Source of the DNA: Pseudomonas flavescens
GTDB lineage: Bacteria; Pseudomonadota; Gammaproteobacteria; Pseudomonadales; Pseudomonadaceae
Reading direction: 5' to 3'
DNA length: 64,000 nucleotides
Assembly: GCF_013408425.1 (NCBI RefSeq)
Contig: NZ_JACBYV010000001.1
Location: 5,766,001-5,830,000 of the forward strand
Shown here piece by piece: positions 1 through 63,268 of the stretch. The first letter of the stretch is position 1; each line of letters starts with the position of its first letter. The notes below the pieces were generated by a model. The model searched no databases. It was not told where the DNA came from and saw only the letters and a list, made by a program, of their open reading frames with translations. The translations under genes were made by a program, and so were the position numbers.

Positions 1-509
1 ACGACGAAGACGCGCAGTCGATTCTGGTCAGCCCGGATGCGGCGTTCCTCGACAAGGTTGCCGAGAGCATCGCCCGCCTGCTGCCGAGCCTGGAGCGGGA
101 GGCGATTGCGCGAACTTCAATCGAAGGTCGCGGCGCGCTGATCCTGGTCGCGGACATGGGCCAGGCCATCGAGGTGGCCAACCGCATCGCGCCAGAACAC
201 CTGGAACTCTCGGTCGAGAACCCGGAGCAGTATCTGCCAGAGATTCGCCATGCTGGCGCCATCTTCATGGGCCGTTACACCGCCGAAGCACTGGGCGATT
301 ACTGTGCGGGGCCGAACCACGTATTGCCTACATCGGGCACTGCGCGTTTCTCGTCGCCGCTGGGGGTCTACGACTTCCAGAAGCGTTCGTCGATCATCCA
401 CTGTTCGGCCGAAGGTGCGTCCGAGCTCGGCAAGGTGGCCTCGGTGCTGGCCCGTGGCGAGTCGCTGACCGCCCATGCCCGCAGTGCCGAGTACCGCATC
501 AAGAACTGA
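1..509 (+). CDS. hisD: Histidinol dehydrogenase, 3' part
   Basis: Final two enzymatic steps of histidine synthesis: NAD- and zinc-dependent oxidation of histidinol to histidine. The gene is cut by the window edge; the reading frame begins at base 3 and about 168 C-terminal residues are present. The PEHLEL segment, [13 protein letters not shown] (catalytic His and a zinc-ligand Asp) and LTAHA (zinc-ligand His) are all visible, so this end is intact. hisC follows 36 bp downstream on the same strand, as expected for a histidine operon. Confidence 0.97.
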
Positions 510-57496: not shown

Positions 57497-59209
57497 TCAA
57501 TGACCGCCGCAGCACTTCTCCCAGTGTTTCTTTTTCGATGTCTGGCCGATGCCCGGGTTGAAGGCGTTGGTCGGATCCAGCTCGCGGTAGAAATCCGCCA
57601 GCGCTGGCTTGGCGATATACAGGTGACCGACGTTGTGCTCGGCCGGGTACTCGGCACGGCGTTCATCGAGGAGCGTCCACATGGCGTGCTCCATGGCGAT
57701 CGGGTCGACGCCCTTCTTGACGATGTAATCCTGATGGAACACGTGGCAGAAGAAGTGCCCGTAGTAGAGCTTGTGGATGATCTGCCCTTGCATCGCTGCC
57801 GGCAGCGTCTCGACCCAGTCACGGTCATTGCGACGCAGGGCGATATCCAGGGCGAGGATGTCTTCGACGCTGCTGCGGTGCGCCTCGCGGTAGCGGATCG
57901 CCGCGCCAGCGATGGCGAAGCGGTGCAGGAATGCCTTGCGGCCCTCGTCGGCGTCGCATTCGAAAAAGGCACCGCTGCGGCGTTGCCCGAAGTATTCGCT
58001 CAGAAAGGCGCGGGTCTGCTCCAGGCTGTCGTTGGCAACTCGGACGAGCAGGTGATGCTCATAGCGGTCGCGGTATTGGCGCATGCGCAGTGGCAGGTGG
58101 CTGGGCAGCAGATTCATCAGCAGCTGAATCGCCCGGTCACTGATGCCTCGTAGGCCGAAGCGCTCGAAGAAGCCATCGACACGGCTCTTCAGCGCGAAGG
58201 CCGCAGGGACCTTGGCAGTGCCGAACCTGTCGATGAGCAGAAAGGTGTCCTTGCCATACTTTTCGCCGATGTCGAAGGCGGTGCGGTGGATGTACTCGCC
58301 GGCAATGGGCAGGCTTGGCAGCTGGCTGAGCAGGTGGCGGCGTATCTCTGTGAGGTCGTGCGGGTCGTTGCTGCCGATATAGAAGACGGTGCTCGGCTCC
58401 TTGGCGAAGGTATCCAGGCGCACGGCGAACAGGCACAGCTTGCCGGCCGAGCCGGAGGCCTCGAACAGTCGTGAGGGGTCGGCATTGAAGCGTGCCGGTG
58501 TATCGGCGTCGACGTCGCGTACGTAGTCGCCATAGCTGCCGTCGGAGGCCCTGCCGGTACCGTCATTGCTGACCTGAAACGGGCTGTAGTCGCCACGTTG
58601 CAGGCGGGTGAGGATTTCCTCGGGGCTGTTGCCCAGGTCGATGCCCAGGTGATTGATCAGCGCCAGCGTACCGTCTTCCATCACCTGTGCGTACAGTGCC
58701 AGTTCGGTGTAGGCCGGGCCGCGGCGGACCAGCGAGCCTCCCGAGTTGTTGCACACGCCACCCAGAACCGAAGCGCCGATGCACGAGGAGCCGATCACCG
58801 AGTGGGGCTCGCGGCCAAGCGGTGCCAGTGCCTGCTCCAGGCGATCCAATGTGGCGCCGGGCAGGCAGACCACCTGCTCGCCGTCATTGATCAGCTGCAC
58901 ACCGGTTATGCGCAGGGTGCTGATCAGTACGATCTCGCGATCGTAGTCGTTGCCATCCGGTGTCGAGCCTCCGGTCAGGCCCGTGTTGGCCGCCTGCATG
59001 ATGACGATGCGATTGGCGGCGACCGCCGCCTGCAGGACCCGCCACTGCTCCAGCAGCGTGCCCGGCCGGACCACGGCCAGCACGCTGCCGTCGCCAGTGC
59101 GATGGCCCTTGCGAAAGCGCCGGGTGCTTTGCTCGTCGGTGAGTACATGCTCGCTGCCCACCGTTTCACGCAGAGTCGCCAGCAGGGTGTCTCGGCTGAT
59201 CGATGGCAT
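57497..59209 (-). CDS. dld: Quinone-dependent D-lactate dehydrogenase (Dld)
   Basis: Membrane-associated FAD enzyme oxidising D-lactate to pyruvate with electrons to quinone, 570 aa, the length of E. coli Dld. The FAD-binding region (MQAANTGLTGGSTPDGNDYD; GSSCIGASVLGGVCNNSGGS) and the Dld membrane-binding domain (LMNLLPSHLPLRMRQYRDRYEHHLLV) are clear; the C-terminus is KHWEKCCGGH. It starts 3 bp after lldD, so it belongs to the lactate operon. Confidence 0.95.
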   Translation of the reverse strand: MPSISRDTLLATLRETVGSEHVLTDEQSTRRFRKGHRTGDGSVLAVVRPGTLLEQWRVLQAAVAANRIVIMQAANTGLTGGSTPDGNDYDREIVLISTLRITGVQLINDGEQVVCLPGATLDRLEQALAPLGREPHSVIGSSCIGASVLGGVCNNSGGSLVRRGPAYTELALYAQVMEDGTLALINHLGIDLGNSPEEILTRLQRGDYSPFQVSNDGTGRASDGSYGDYVRDVDADTPARFNADPSRLFEASGSAGKLCLFAVRLDTFAKEPSTVFYIGSNDPHDLTEIRRHLLSQLPSLPIAGEYIHRTAFDIGEKYGKDTFLLIDRFGTAKVPAAFALKSRVDGFFERFGLRGISDRAIQLLMNLLPSHLPLRMRQYRDRYEHHLLVRVANDSLEQTRAFLSEYFGQRRSGAFFECDADEGRKAFLHRFAIAGAAIRYREAHRSSVEDILALDIALRRNDRDWVETLPAAMQGQIIHKLYYGHFFCHVFHQDYIVKKGVDPIAMEHAMWTLLDERRAEYPAEHNVGHLYIAKPALADFYRELDPTNAFNPGIGQTSKKKHWEKCCGGH

Positions 59210-59212
59210 TGC

Positions 59213-60352
59213 TCAGCGCTCCCGAACCAGTGACTCGGCGCTGATCTGCGCAATCGATCTGGCACCGGTCAGCACCATGGCCACGCGCATTTCTTTCTCG
59301 ATCAGGTTCAGCAGGTTGCTCACACCCGCGCCGCCAGCGGCAGCCAATGCATAGACGAAGGCGCGGCCAAGCATCACGGTATCGGCGCCCAGGGCGATCA
59401 TGCGCACCACGTCCAGGCCGCTGCGAATGCCCGAGTCGGCGAGGATCTTCAGATCGCCCTTCACCGCGTCGGCGATGGCCGGCAAGGCGCGGGCGCTGGA
59501 CAGCACACCATCGAGCTGGCGACCGCCGTGGTTGGAGACGACGATGCCGTCGGCGCCGAACTTGACTGCATCGCGCGCATCTTCCGGGTCAAGAATGCCC
59601 TTGATCACCATCGGGCCGTCCCAGAACTCACGGATCCACTCCAGGTCCTTCCAGGAAATCGACGGGTCGAAGTTGGCACCCAGCCAGCCGATGTAATCGG
59701 CCAGGCCGGTGGGGCTGCCCCGGTAGGCGGAAATGTTGCCCAGGTCGTGGGGCTTGCCCAGCAGGCCGACGTCCAGCGCCCAGGCGGGATGAGTGAAGGC
59801 TTGCAGCATCCGGCGCACGGCCGCGTTGGCGCCGCTCATGCCCGAGTGGGCGTCGCGGTAGCGCGCACCCGGTGTCGGCATGTCGACGGTGAATACCAGG
59901 GTGGTGACGCCGGCGGCCTTGGCGCGCTCAAGGGCGTTCTTCATGAAGCCGCGGTCTTTCAATACGTACAACTGAAACCACATGGGGCGGTTGATCGCTG
60001 GTGCCACTTCCTCGATCGGGCACACCGACACGGTGGAGAGCGTGAAGGGAATGCCCTTGTCGGCTGCCGCTTTGGCTGCCTGCACTTCACCACGGCGGGC
60101 GTACATGCCGGTCAGCCCGACGGGGGCCAGGACTACCGGCATCGACAATGTCTCACCGAATAGCTGGGTTTCCAGGCTCAGCTCGGACATGTTCTTCAGC
60201 ACGCGCTGGCGCAGGGCGATGCTGGCGAGGTCCTCGACGTTGCGCCGCAGCGTGTACTCGGCATAGGCGCCGCCGTCGATGTAGTGGAACAGGAATGGCG
60301 GCAGGCGTCGCTGGGCAGCGGCGCGATAATCGGTGGAGGCAGAAATGATCAT
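59213..60352 (-). CDS. lldD: L-lactate dehydrogenase (FMN, quinone-linked)
   Basis: Alpha-hydroxy acid oxidase family enzyme of 379 aa converting L-lactate to pyruvate at the membrane. The FMN/active-site motif [10 protein letters not shown] (catalytic His) and FMN-binding [15 protein letters not shown] are present, as is [13 protein letters not shown] near the N-terminus. ATG 60352 gives [18 protein letters not shown]. Middle gene of lldP-lldD-dld. Confidence 0.96.
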
Positions 60353-60514
60353 GGGCTTGATTCCGTATCTGGGCTGACGCGTCAACCTGTTGTCAGCGCC
60401 AAGGCCCTGGCTCTGCCGAGGGCTTTGGAGTTGTTGCGCTGTGTTCGGTGGATCTATCGTTTTGCTGAGTTCCAGAGGATAGGGCAGCACGCCATGTGCT
60501 GCCCTGTGCGCGAC

Positions 60515-62200
60515 TCAGTGGACGATCATGCCGGTCAGCCAGTAGGCCTGAGCCAGTGTGATCAGGCCGACGAAGGTGGCGAAGATCAGGCTGTGCTTGA
60601 GGGTGAAGCGGAACAGATCGGACTCCTTGCCGACCATGCCGGTCGCAGCGCAAGCCACGGCGATGGACTGCGGCGAGATCATCTTGCCGGTCACGCCACC
60701 GCTGGTATTGGCAGCCACCAGCAGGGTGTCGCTGACGCCGATCTGGTGCGCCGTGGTGGCTTGCAGCGAGCCGAACAAGGCGTTGGAGGACGTGTCCGAG
60801 CCGGTCAGGAACACCCCCAGCCAGCCGAGGAAGGGCGAGAAGAACGGGAATGCCGCACCGGTGCCGGCAAGTACCAGCGCCATGGTGGTCGACATGCCCG
60901 AATAGTTGGTGACGAACGCGAACGCCAGCACCATGCCGATGGACAGGATAGGCCAGCGCAACTCGTAGAAAGTTTCTTTCAGTGTGGTAAGACCAATTCT
61001 GAAATTGATCTTCAACACCAGCATCGATAGCACCGCCGACAGGAAGATGGCCGTACCGGTAGCCGACACCGGATCGAGCTTGAACACCGCCGCGATGGGG
61101 GTTGGATTGGCAACGATCGGGGCGACCTTGATCACCAGTTGATCCAGGTACGGGATTGGCAGCATGAACACCAGGTTGTCCAGCGCGCCACCTGGGGCGA
61201 ACAGTGCCTTGAAGGGTTTCAGGGTCCACACCGTGACCATGGCGGTGAGGATCAGGAAGGGCGACCAGGCCTTGAGGATCTCGCCCAGGCTGTAGGGCGA
61301 TGGCGTGGTGCTGCGTACGCCGCCGAACCCGCCAGCCACTGCTGCACCACCGGAAACGCCAGCGATCTGGCTGGCGGCGGCCCGCTTGGGCTGCCAGACC
61401 TTGAGGAACAGGGTCAGGCACACCAGGCTGACCAGTGCCGAGGTGATGTCCGGCAGTTCAGGGCCGATGTAGTTGGAGGTGTAGTACTGGGTGATGGCGA
61501 AGCTCACGCCAGCGACCAGCGCCGCCGGCCAGGTTTCCCTGATGCCTTTCCAGCCATCCATCATCGCCACCAGCCAGAACGGCACGATGATCGACAGCAG
61601 TGGCAGTTGGCGACCGGTCATGGCGCCGATCTTGAAGGCGTCGATGCCGGTGACCTGGCCAGCGACGATGATCGGAATGCCCAGGGCGCCAAAGGCCACC
61701 GGTGCGGTATTGGCGATCAGGCACAAGCCAGCGGCGTAGAGCGGGTTGAAGCCCAGGCCGACCAGTAGGGCAGCGGTGATGGCCACCGGTGCGCCGAAGC
61801 CGGCGGCACCTTCGAGGAATGCACCGAAGGAGAACCCGATCAGCAGCACCTGCAGACGCTGGTCGTCGGTGATCGACAATACCGAGCTGCGGATGACTTC
61901 GAACTGGCCGCTCTTGACCGTCAGTTTGTACAGGAACACGGCAGCGACGATGATCCAGGCGATGGGCCAGAGGCCGTAGGCGAAGCCGTAAGCGGCAGCG
62001 GCCAGGGCCTTGTCTACCGGCATGCCGAATGCGGCGATGGCGATGATCACCGAGAGTCCCAGGGTGATGCTGCCCGCCACGTGGCCCTTCATGCGGAAGA
62101 CGGCCAGGGCGAGAAAAAAGAAAATGATCGGAACGACCGCCGCCAGCGCGGACAGGCCGAGGCTGCCGAGCGGGGTGTACAACTGTTGCCATGTTTGCAT
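60515..62200 (-). CDS. lldP: L-lactate permease
   Basis: Proton-coupled lactate importer of 561 aa with about 12-14 hydrophobic segments and LldP-family motifs such as [26 protein letters not shown] and [13 protein letters not shown]. First gene of the lactate operon. The coding sequence contains an LldR-like palindrome at 60985-60995 written with rare codons. ATG 62200 begins [15 protein letters not shown]. Confidence 0.95.
60985..60995. promoter_or_regulatory. Intragenic LldR-like operator inside lldP
   Basis: TGGTAAGACCA (plus strand) repeats the core of the promoter operator at 62297-62311. It encodes RIGLTT in lldP using AGA, ATT, GGT, CTT, ACC and ACA; AGA, CTT and ACA are rare in this GC-rich genome, implying the DNA sequence itself is retained. 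Confidence 0.6.
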
Positions 62201-62296
62201 GGTGAAGGCTCGCTGATTGTTGTTGGTATCGCCGGGTCGCAAGCTGCCATTGGTTATCGGTGACGGCAGGTGTGGCGCTGCAACCGGATCGTTATT

Positions 62297-62311
62297 ATTG
62301 GTAAGACCAAT
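62297..62311. promoter_or_regulatory. LldR-type operator upstream of lldP
   Basis: ATTGGTAAGACCAAT is an inverted repeat (ATTGGT/ACCAAT, 3-base spacer), the known PdhR/LldR operator form. It lies 97 bp upstream of lldP and 190 bp upstream of lldR, positioned for repression relieved by L-lactate. Confidence 0.85.
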
Positions 62312-62500
62312 TTACAAAAGAGGCGAGCCAGGATAATTTCTTTCCTTCGGGTGCGTCAATTTGTGTCGCTGCTACTTTGGTAGAAGGCGCGCTCCAAGCG
62401 TTGAGCTTGTGATGACGCAGGGCTCTGGTTAGGCTGCACAGGTTTCCTGGCGGGCAGCCGATCTGCCGCCGTCTTCGCGATGCAATGGAGCATTGAACGC

Positions 62501-63268
62501 ATGAATTTTGGTCCGTTGCGGCAGAGGCGTTTGTCAGACGACATCGTCGAGCGTCTCGAAGCGATGATCCTCGAGGGCACCCTGAAGGCCGGTGAGCGGC
62601 TGCCTGCAGAGCGCGTGCTCGCCGAGCAGTTCGGTGTCTCCCGCCCCTCACTGCGTGAAGCCATCCAGAAGCTCGCCACCAAAGGCTTGCTGAGTAGTCG
62701 GCAAGGTGGCGGCACCTACATTTGCGAGAACCTTGGATCGACCTTCAGTGATCCGCTCATGCACCTGCTGGAAAGCAATGCCGACGCTCAGCGCGACCTC
62801 CTCGAGTTCCGGCATACCCTGGAGGGCTCCTGCGCGTATTACGCGGCGTTGCGTGCTACCGATGTGGATCGCCAGCGGCTGAGTGGCGCGTTCGAACGTC
62901 TGCAGGATTGCTATGGGCGTGCTGGTGAAGTGACGCGTGCCGAGGAGGGGGCGGCCGACGCCAGCTTCCATCTGGCCATCGCAGAGGCCAGCCACAATGC
63001 CGTGCTGCTGCACACCATTCGGGGCCTGTTCGACCTGCTCAAGCGCAACGTGGTGACCAATATAGGCGGCATGTATGCCCTGCGCGGGGAAACCCGCGGC
63101 ATGCTCAATGCCCAGCACCGGGCGCTTTACGAAGCGATCATCGAGGGGCGGGCCGAAGAGGCGCGAGCCCTTTCGAACCAGCATATCGATTACGTTCAGG
63201 AGGTCCTGGCCGACGTGCTGCAGCAGGAAGTCCGCGAGCAGCGCGCGCAGCGGCGCCAGGGGCTCTAG
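62501..63268 (+). CDS. lldR: GntR/FCD-family lactate-responsive regulator LldR
   Basis: A 255-aa repressor with GntR HTH (LPAERVLAEQFGVSRPSLREAIQKLATKGLLSSRQGGGTYI) and an FCD ligand domain with metal-site histidines (FHLAIAEASHNAVLL, AQHRALYEAI). Divergent from lldP with the operator between. ATG 62501 has GGAG upstream; an earlier in-frame ATG 62480 would add 7 residues. Confidence 0.93.
   Translation: MNFGPLRQRRLSDDIVERLEAMILEGTLKAGERLPAERVLAEQFGVSRPSLREAIQKLATKGLLSSRQGGGTYICENLGSTFSDPLMHLLESNADAQRDLLEFRHTLEGSCAYYAALRATDVDRQRLSGAFERLQDCYGRAGEVTRAEEGAADASFHLAIAEASHNAVLLHTIRGLFDLLKRNVVTNIGGMYALRGETRGMLNAQHRALYEAIIEGRAEEARALSNQHIDYVQEVLADVLQQEVREQRAQRRQGL

Follow-up and report, generated by a model that had tools for sequence, protein, structure and literature searches.

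The lactate permease gene lldP of Pseudomonas flavescens was found to repeat, 1.2 kb into its coding sequence, the palindrome that lies in its own 5' region, and in related genes this intragenic palindrome is conserved via unusual codons beyond the need of the protein, which amounts to selection at the DNA level. Judged from the comparison of sequences, the intragenic site is very probably an operator of LldR that is under such selection. Operators inside genes are known; the new element is a probable family-wide LldR operator 1.2 kb inside the permease gene, for which paralogs and natural losses serve as controls. In the open-access literature that was searched, we met with no description of an LldR site lying within lldP.

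The lld locus and its two palindromes

The window, by which we mean the whole stretch of 64,000 nucleotides that was analysed, contains lldP, the divergent lldR and two lactate dehydrogenase genes (Table 1). A simple sigma-70 scan of positions 60500-62520 returned TTGACG-18-TATCCT as the sole promoter-like match, 0.4 being expected. Because the lldP start was inferred near 62323, the core of the primary operator O1 would be placed at about +15 to +25. The product of lldR was scored higher by the NCBIfam model of PdhR than by that of LldR, both scores being below the cut-off.

Table 1. Genes and predicted sites of the lld locus (positions in the window)
Feature	Position	Strand	Description
dld	57497..59209	-	D-lactate dehydrogenase; next after lldD
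lldD	59213..60352	-	FMN-dependent L-lactate dehydrogenase; 3' of lldP
lldP	60515..62200	-	L-lactate permease; Pfam Lactate_perm, TIGR00795
Intragenic site, LldR-box-like candidate operator AGAATTGGTCTTACCACACTG	60980..61000, core 60985-60995	-	lldP codons 401-407
Primary operator O1 TAAATTGGTCTTACCAATAAT	62294..62314, core 62299-62309	-	palindrome in the 5' region of lldP
Predicted lldP promoter TTGACG-18-TATCCT	62330..62359	-	sigma-70 scan
lldR	62513..63268	+	FadR-type GntR regulator with GntR and FCD domains; divergent from lldP

The core TGGTAAGACCA is present in both O1 and the intragenic site, about 1.3 kb apart, just as the initial annotation of this DNA had located them. That annotation gave the repeat as 11 bases, and its extent had to be revised, as 14 bases are common to both sites (AATTGGTCTTACCA on the lldP strand; 60985-60998 and 62299-62312 on the + strand). 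Codons 401-407 of lldP in the window read AGA ATT GGT CTT ACC ACA CTG, with the core in codons 402-406.

The general pattern TGGTN3ACCA occurs four times in the window, where 0.49 are expected, and 69 times in the 5.95-Mb genome, in which the same pattern reversed has 177 matches; with 69 genomic cores, the core by itself is therefore weak evidence. Exact TGGTAAGACCA, searched on both strands, has four copies in the genome, namely the two lld sites and two copies that arise from P-loop (GKTT) codons of unrelated genes. Counting of the core motif was accordingly rejected as sole evidence. The extended pattern AANTGGTN3ACCA has six matches in the genome, and AATTGGTCTTACCA is found at the two lld sites only.

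Genes compared and scoring

The main comparison covered 81 lldP genes, i.e. that of the window and the best 80 of 582 confirmed relatives, chosen by protein similarity. Six peptide patterns, one of them adjoining the site, were used for the 80-locus sample, and these loci are mutually related. Further loci were added, mostly chosen as non-members of the listed pattern matches or as distant, and in one added batch 8 of the 20 loci were chosen for deviating codons. The count of 123 intact cores among 158 lldR-linked genes describes an uneven sample and is no frequency; that residues 402 and 406 are always motif-compatible in the 123 is true by selection, and the fair figure is that of the 81. 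Left out were 22 duplicate lldP sequences, L083 (46% identity) and L216 (a broken lldP with no column 403). Codon bias was scored as bits of departure from the usage of lldP itself, given the residue, and substitutions and state changes were counted on a tree of 160 lldP-type genes.

Conservation of the palindrome through codon choice

O1 was found at all 81 loci (77/77 in a smaller first tally), and TGGTN3ACCA is intact at the intragenic position in 77 of them, the others being L065, L068, L079 and L080. The family form of the intragenic palindrome is AAnTGGTCTKACCAnTT. Residue 402 is Thr in only 72% of the 81 genes and other residues in the rest, yet 77 genes have T as the third base of its codon. 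At codon 403, GGT is found in 79 of the 81, as compared with 18% of lldP Gly codons at large; of 47 conserved Gly columns, GGT predominates in three, the two besides 403 being mixed. Codon 404 is CTG in 41 genes and CTT in 39, and ACC at 405 is a common Thr codon anyway. ACA, found in the window at codon 406, is unusual there (third base T in 66/81). The copy in the window has three mismatches in 14 positions to the E. coli LldR box AAnTGGTCnGACCAnTT, and because its right flank is degraded (ACA CTG for the usual ACT TTR) it is possibly a weak copy in this species.

Ranked by bias among 533 scored codons, codons 402, 407, 403 and 406 took the first four places in that order, and codon 404 was twelfth. 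The seven-codon window 401-407 reached 1.82 bits, while the median over 401 scorable lldP windows was 0.32. The best window of lldR scored 0.92 bits (81 loci) and that of lldD 0.83 bits (27 loci, in which lldP codons 401-407 scored 1.54). No other stretch scored in lldP, lldR or lldD has as strong a codon bias as codons 401-407. Since codons 390-399 scored 0.23 bits and codons 409-419 scored 0.11 bits, the bias is confined to the palindrome. According to the initial annotation, the site is preserved by the rare codons AGA, CTT and ACA; it was right that unusual codons are kept, but the ones that matter are ATT402, as a codon ending in T, and GGT403, not AGA401, CTT404 or ACA406.

A weaker codon-biased stretch was noticed at 62149-62182 (about codons 7-17 of lldP), where CTC, and not CTG, is the prevailing codon for Leu at positions 7, 11 and 14; the next non-overlapping lldP window by score (codons 11-17, 1.12 bits) falls here, and this bias is possibly a signal near the gene start.

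On the tree, the third bases of codons 402, 403 and 405 changed 3, 2 and 0 times, where the median of 298 four- or sixfold degenerate codons is 12; of these 298 codons, 35, 25 and 8, respectively, are as low or lower. The third bases of codons 404, 406 and 407 changed 16, 15 and 27 times, and the five-codon window 402-406 as a whole showed 36 changes (median 58), which leaves it outside the 12 lowest windows. The raw substitution counts are thus not extreme, and the exceptional feature is the retention of unusual codons.

The same 123 intact-core, lldR-linked genes, taken as the uneven sample they are, have at residue 402 Thr in 73, Ile in 31, Asn in 14, Ser in 3 and Asp in 2; residue 404 is Leu, Ile or Met, and the only spacers are CTG (73), CTT (42), ATT (7) and ATG (1). 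An intact core is lacking in 35 lldR-linked genes, 14 of which retain the peptide GLTT; these 14 have ACC at codon 402 in nine cases and, at codon 403, GGC or GGG in six and GGT in eight. Because GLTT is kept with other codons in these site-less genes, the codons that make the palindrome are not needed by the protein. Residue 405 is Thr in 16 of the 35 site-less genes and otherwise Ser, Ala, Gly, Cys, Ile, Lys, Gln or Val, and Gly403 is retained in 25. A further step would be that residues of the transporter are imposed by an old, family-wide operator, so that Pseudomonas LldP keeps its G-[LIM]-T-[TSNI] largely for LldR binding and not for transport; the frequent retention of Thr405 and Gly403 in site-less genes lowers the odds of this, and we regard it as a tentative idea, somewhat on the doubtful side of an even chance.

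It was also considered that the stretch might act in the mRNA, as a hairpin or as a rare-codon translational pause, and not as DNA. A palindrome can pair with itself, rare codons could pause ribosomes, and the copy in the window does fold at -7.1 kcal/mol with the outer TTTCAG/CTGAAA repeat. However, of three relatives folded, one gave a weak hairpin (-2.1 kcal/mol) and two preferred other pairs; the rarity of the codons is not conserved, CTG being as common as CTT at codon 404; and the family form matches the LldR box, while the paralogs described below are without it. We consider a role in the mRNA very improbable, and the hairpin was rejected as weak in the relatives folded, the value for the window being due to the outer repeat. 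This outer inverted repeat, TTTCAG...CTGAAA, surrounds the box at 60977-61004 and is absent from the three relatives folded.

Association of the intragenic site with a linked lldR

An lldR homologue lies beside 158 of the 160 scored lldP-type genes, and the exceptions, L120 and L197, are paralogs without the site. Fifteen genomes gave two strong matches in the family search, and each of these pairs consists of an lldR-linked lldP and a paralog beside no lldR, the paralogs being 78-82% identical to the LldP of the window. The intragenic site is present in the lldP of all 15 genomes and in none of the 15 paralogs, and codon 403 is GGT in 15/15 and 2/15, respectively; 14 of the 15 paired genomes belong to one genus, and one of the 15 lldP genes is broken (L245). 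As residues differ in the paralogs too, what the pairing shows is an association, not an effect of codon choice by itself. The one paralog neighbourhood examined, that of L120, adjoins glcF, and this paralog is therefore GlcA-like. The 46% paralog in the genome of the window is likewise without the site. The site thus goes with a linked lldR. Two broken lldP genes, L216 and L245 (matches ending at residue 365 and at residues 464-466, respectively), were seen still to carry the intragenic box.

The initial annotation had suggested selection for the DNA site. This is borne out by the association with a linked lldR and by the absence from lldR-less paralogs, and the comparison of synonymous positions with their neighbours across many Pseudomonas genes also favours it; the observation is stronger than had been claimed.

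The association bears as well on which protein binds the site. Boxes of the FadR subfamily are alike (PMC4494728), so another FadR-type regulator with a TGGTN3ACCA box, e.g. a PdhR- or GlcC-like one, might be the ligand, and the preference of the linked lldR product for the PdhR model would agree with this. The core and its orientation are nevertheless the same as those of O1 beside lldR, and the site is found in lldR-linked copies and is absent from the 15 unlinked paralogs tested; binding by another such regulator is in our view highly unlikely.

Resemblance to LldR boxes

Scored by a position weight matrix built from the 81 primary operators, the intragenic site ranked second within its locus at 79 of the 81 loci; the exceptions were L065 and L068, which no longer have the site. 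The intragenic sites scored 12.0 bits on average, lost sites included, and the best background score was -8.8 in 321,986 positions. The LldR box of E. coli, AAnTGGTCnGACCAnTT, is paired in all the LldR-binding regions of a genomic SELEX study (PMC10272880). Compared with this box, 43 of the 123 intact intragenic sites are exact and 53 have one mismatch (96 within one), whereas O1 of the same 123 genes gives no exact match and 29 with one mismatch. In the 81 loci together (536,762 bases), there are 76 matches to AAnTGGTCnGACCAnTT within one mismatch, of which 62 are the intragenic site and 14 lie in the 260 bases before lldP.

Gain, loss and second boxes in the 5' region

The state of the site changes 15 times on the tree of 160 tips, and it is therefore dispensable. 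It is absent from the most distant members used (L213-L215, L217 and L218), and an early origin in the Pseudomonas-type lldP, followed by repeated loss, is probable. The presumed losses include 11 of the 14 genes whose O1 lies at -202 to -218. Some genes have a second TGGTN3ACCA box in the 5' region, upstream of O1 by 111-180 bp and near the lldR start. It was found in the site-less L065, L068, L169 and L178 as well as in the site-bearing L059, L062, L074, L075 and L139, and it may serve lldR autoregulation. Compensation by the second 5' box was not significant, as 4 of the 35 genes lacking the site and 5 of the 123 with the site have such a box (p 0.11). The O1 dyad is longer in site-less genes (mean run 4.5 versus 3.4, p 0.013, kinship being ignored), and there is only a hint that loss of the site is compensated by a second 5' box or by a longer O1 dyad. 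A class-level search of 274 genomes (E <= 1e-120) returned one relative outside the family, the enteric-type L219 (69%), with the gene order lldP-lldR-lldD and two 5' boxes 98 bp apart, none being inside lldP.

Possible roles of the intragenic site

Since E. coli targets have two boxes and the second box of the Pseudomonas family is usually in lldP, we favour an auxiliary operator, and on balance it appears probable that the intragenic site strengthens LldR repression via O1, by looping or by the local LldR concentration. LldR would bind the intragenic box when lactate is absent, and the dimer bound there would contact LldR on O1, about 1.3 kb off at the promoter, through a loop of the intervening DNA; alternatively, the intragenic box may raise the LldR concentration locally. 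By either route, the promoter would be kept under tight repression until LldR is released by lactate. What speaks against looping is a synthetic E. coli test with lacUV5, in which no synergy was obtained between distal and proximal LldR sites (PMC7804116).

The main rival is a roadblock, in which LldR on the intragenic site would stop polymerase that has escaped from O1, so that no full-length lldP or dehydrogenase mRNA is made at low lactate. The site is about 470 bp short of the lldP stop and precedes the dehydrogenase genes, a position for which a roadblock accounts equally well, whichever genes these are, and the distance from O1 to the site varies across genes (1244-1423 bp), as a roadblock would allow. 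On the other hand, L219 and some Pseudomonas loci have their second box in the 5' region, where it is unable to block elongation inside lldP. We take a roadblock to be unlikely, although the comparative data cannot separate it from an auxiliary operator.

lldD is downstream in 61 of the 123 site-bearing genes and not in 61, one being not assessable. The gene following lldP was seen to vary, as in L012, L040 and L072, with O1 and the intragenic box unchanged; in three examples without lldD it encodes a CCG-domain protein (two) or an FAD/Fe-S oxidase (one). Besides looping and a control of elongation, the initial annotation had proposed an internal promoter for lldD-dld, controlled by the site. 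Such a promoter might well lie under an intragenic operator, but the simple sigma-70 scan returned nothing promoter-like around the site in the window, codon bias drops on both sides of the palindrome, and the site is kept equally where lldD is not downstream. A recognisable or conserved -35/-10 pair near the site was found neither by the window scan nor from codon bias, and this proposal was dropped as highly improbable.

Comparison with known operators and significance

The lac operon has an auxiliary operator of its own, lac O2, which is located inside lacZ, the first gene of the operon, about 400 bp from lac O1. Its repressor, LacI, also binds the promoter operator and forms a stable tetramer. 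The arrangement here is alike in that the box of the promoter operator is repeated in the coding sequence of the first operon gene, and the intragenic copy would in this respect be of the lac O2 type. It differs in the spacing to O1, which is 1.24-1.42 kb here as compared with about 400 bp in lac, and in that LldR tetramers are only proposed, in contrast to the stable tetramer of LacI.

The E. coli lldPRD operon, with its operators O1 and O2, resembles the present locus in having two LldR boxes per target with the same palindrome AAnTGGTCnGACCAnTT (PMC10272880), and LldR dimers on O1 and O2 are described as forming a tetramer (PMC5412874). Both boxes of lldPRD are in the promoter region and lldR is inside the operon, whereas here lldR is divergent and one box is found 1.2 kb into the lldP gene. 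In Neisseria, GdhR binds a FadR-type inverted repeat just 3' of the start site of the lactate permease gene lctP (PMC6957213), and an operator just past the start site is what was inferred for O1 here. That system differs in that it has a single site, with no second one in the probe of its authors, and a different regulator that is not lactate-responsive.

The Pseudomonas papers PMC4659176, PMC8827060 and PMC11389411 treat LldR control as a matter of the promoter region, from which reporters were built. If part of the switch sits 1.2 kb inside lldP, such promoter-region reporters miss it. Because a regulatory site and a protein are encoded in one stretch of bases, and natural losses and paralogs can be used for control, selection on the two codes becomes separable at this locus. 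In most species of the Pseudomonas family that were examined, lldP carries a mid-gene second copy of the probable site of the repressor, and this suggests that part of the switch of the operon is written inside a gene under its control.
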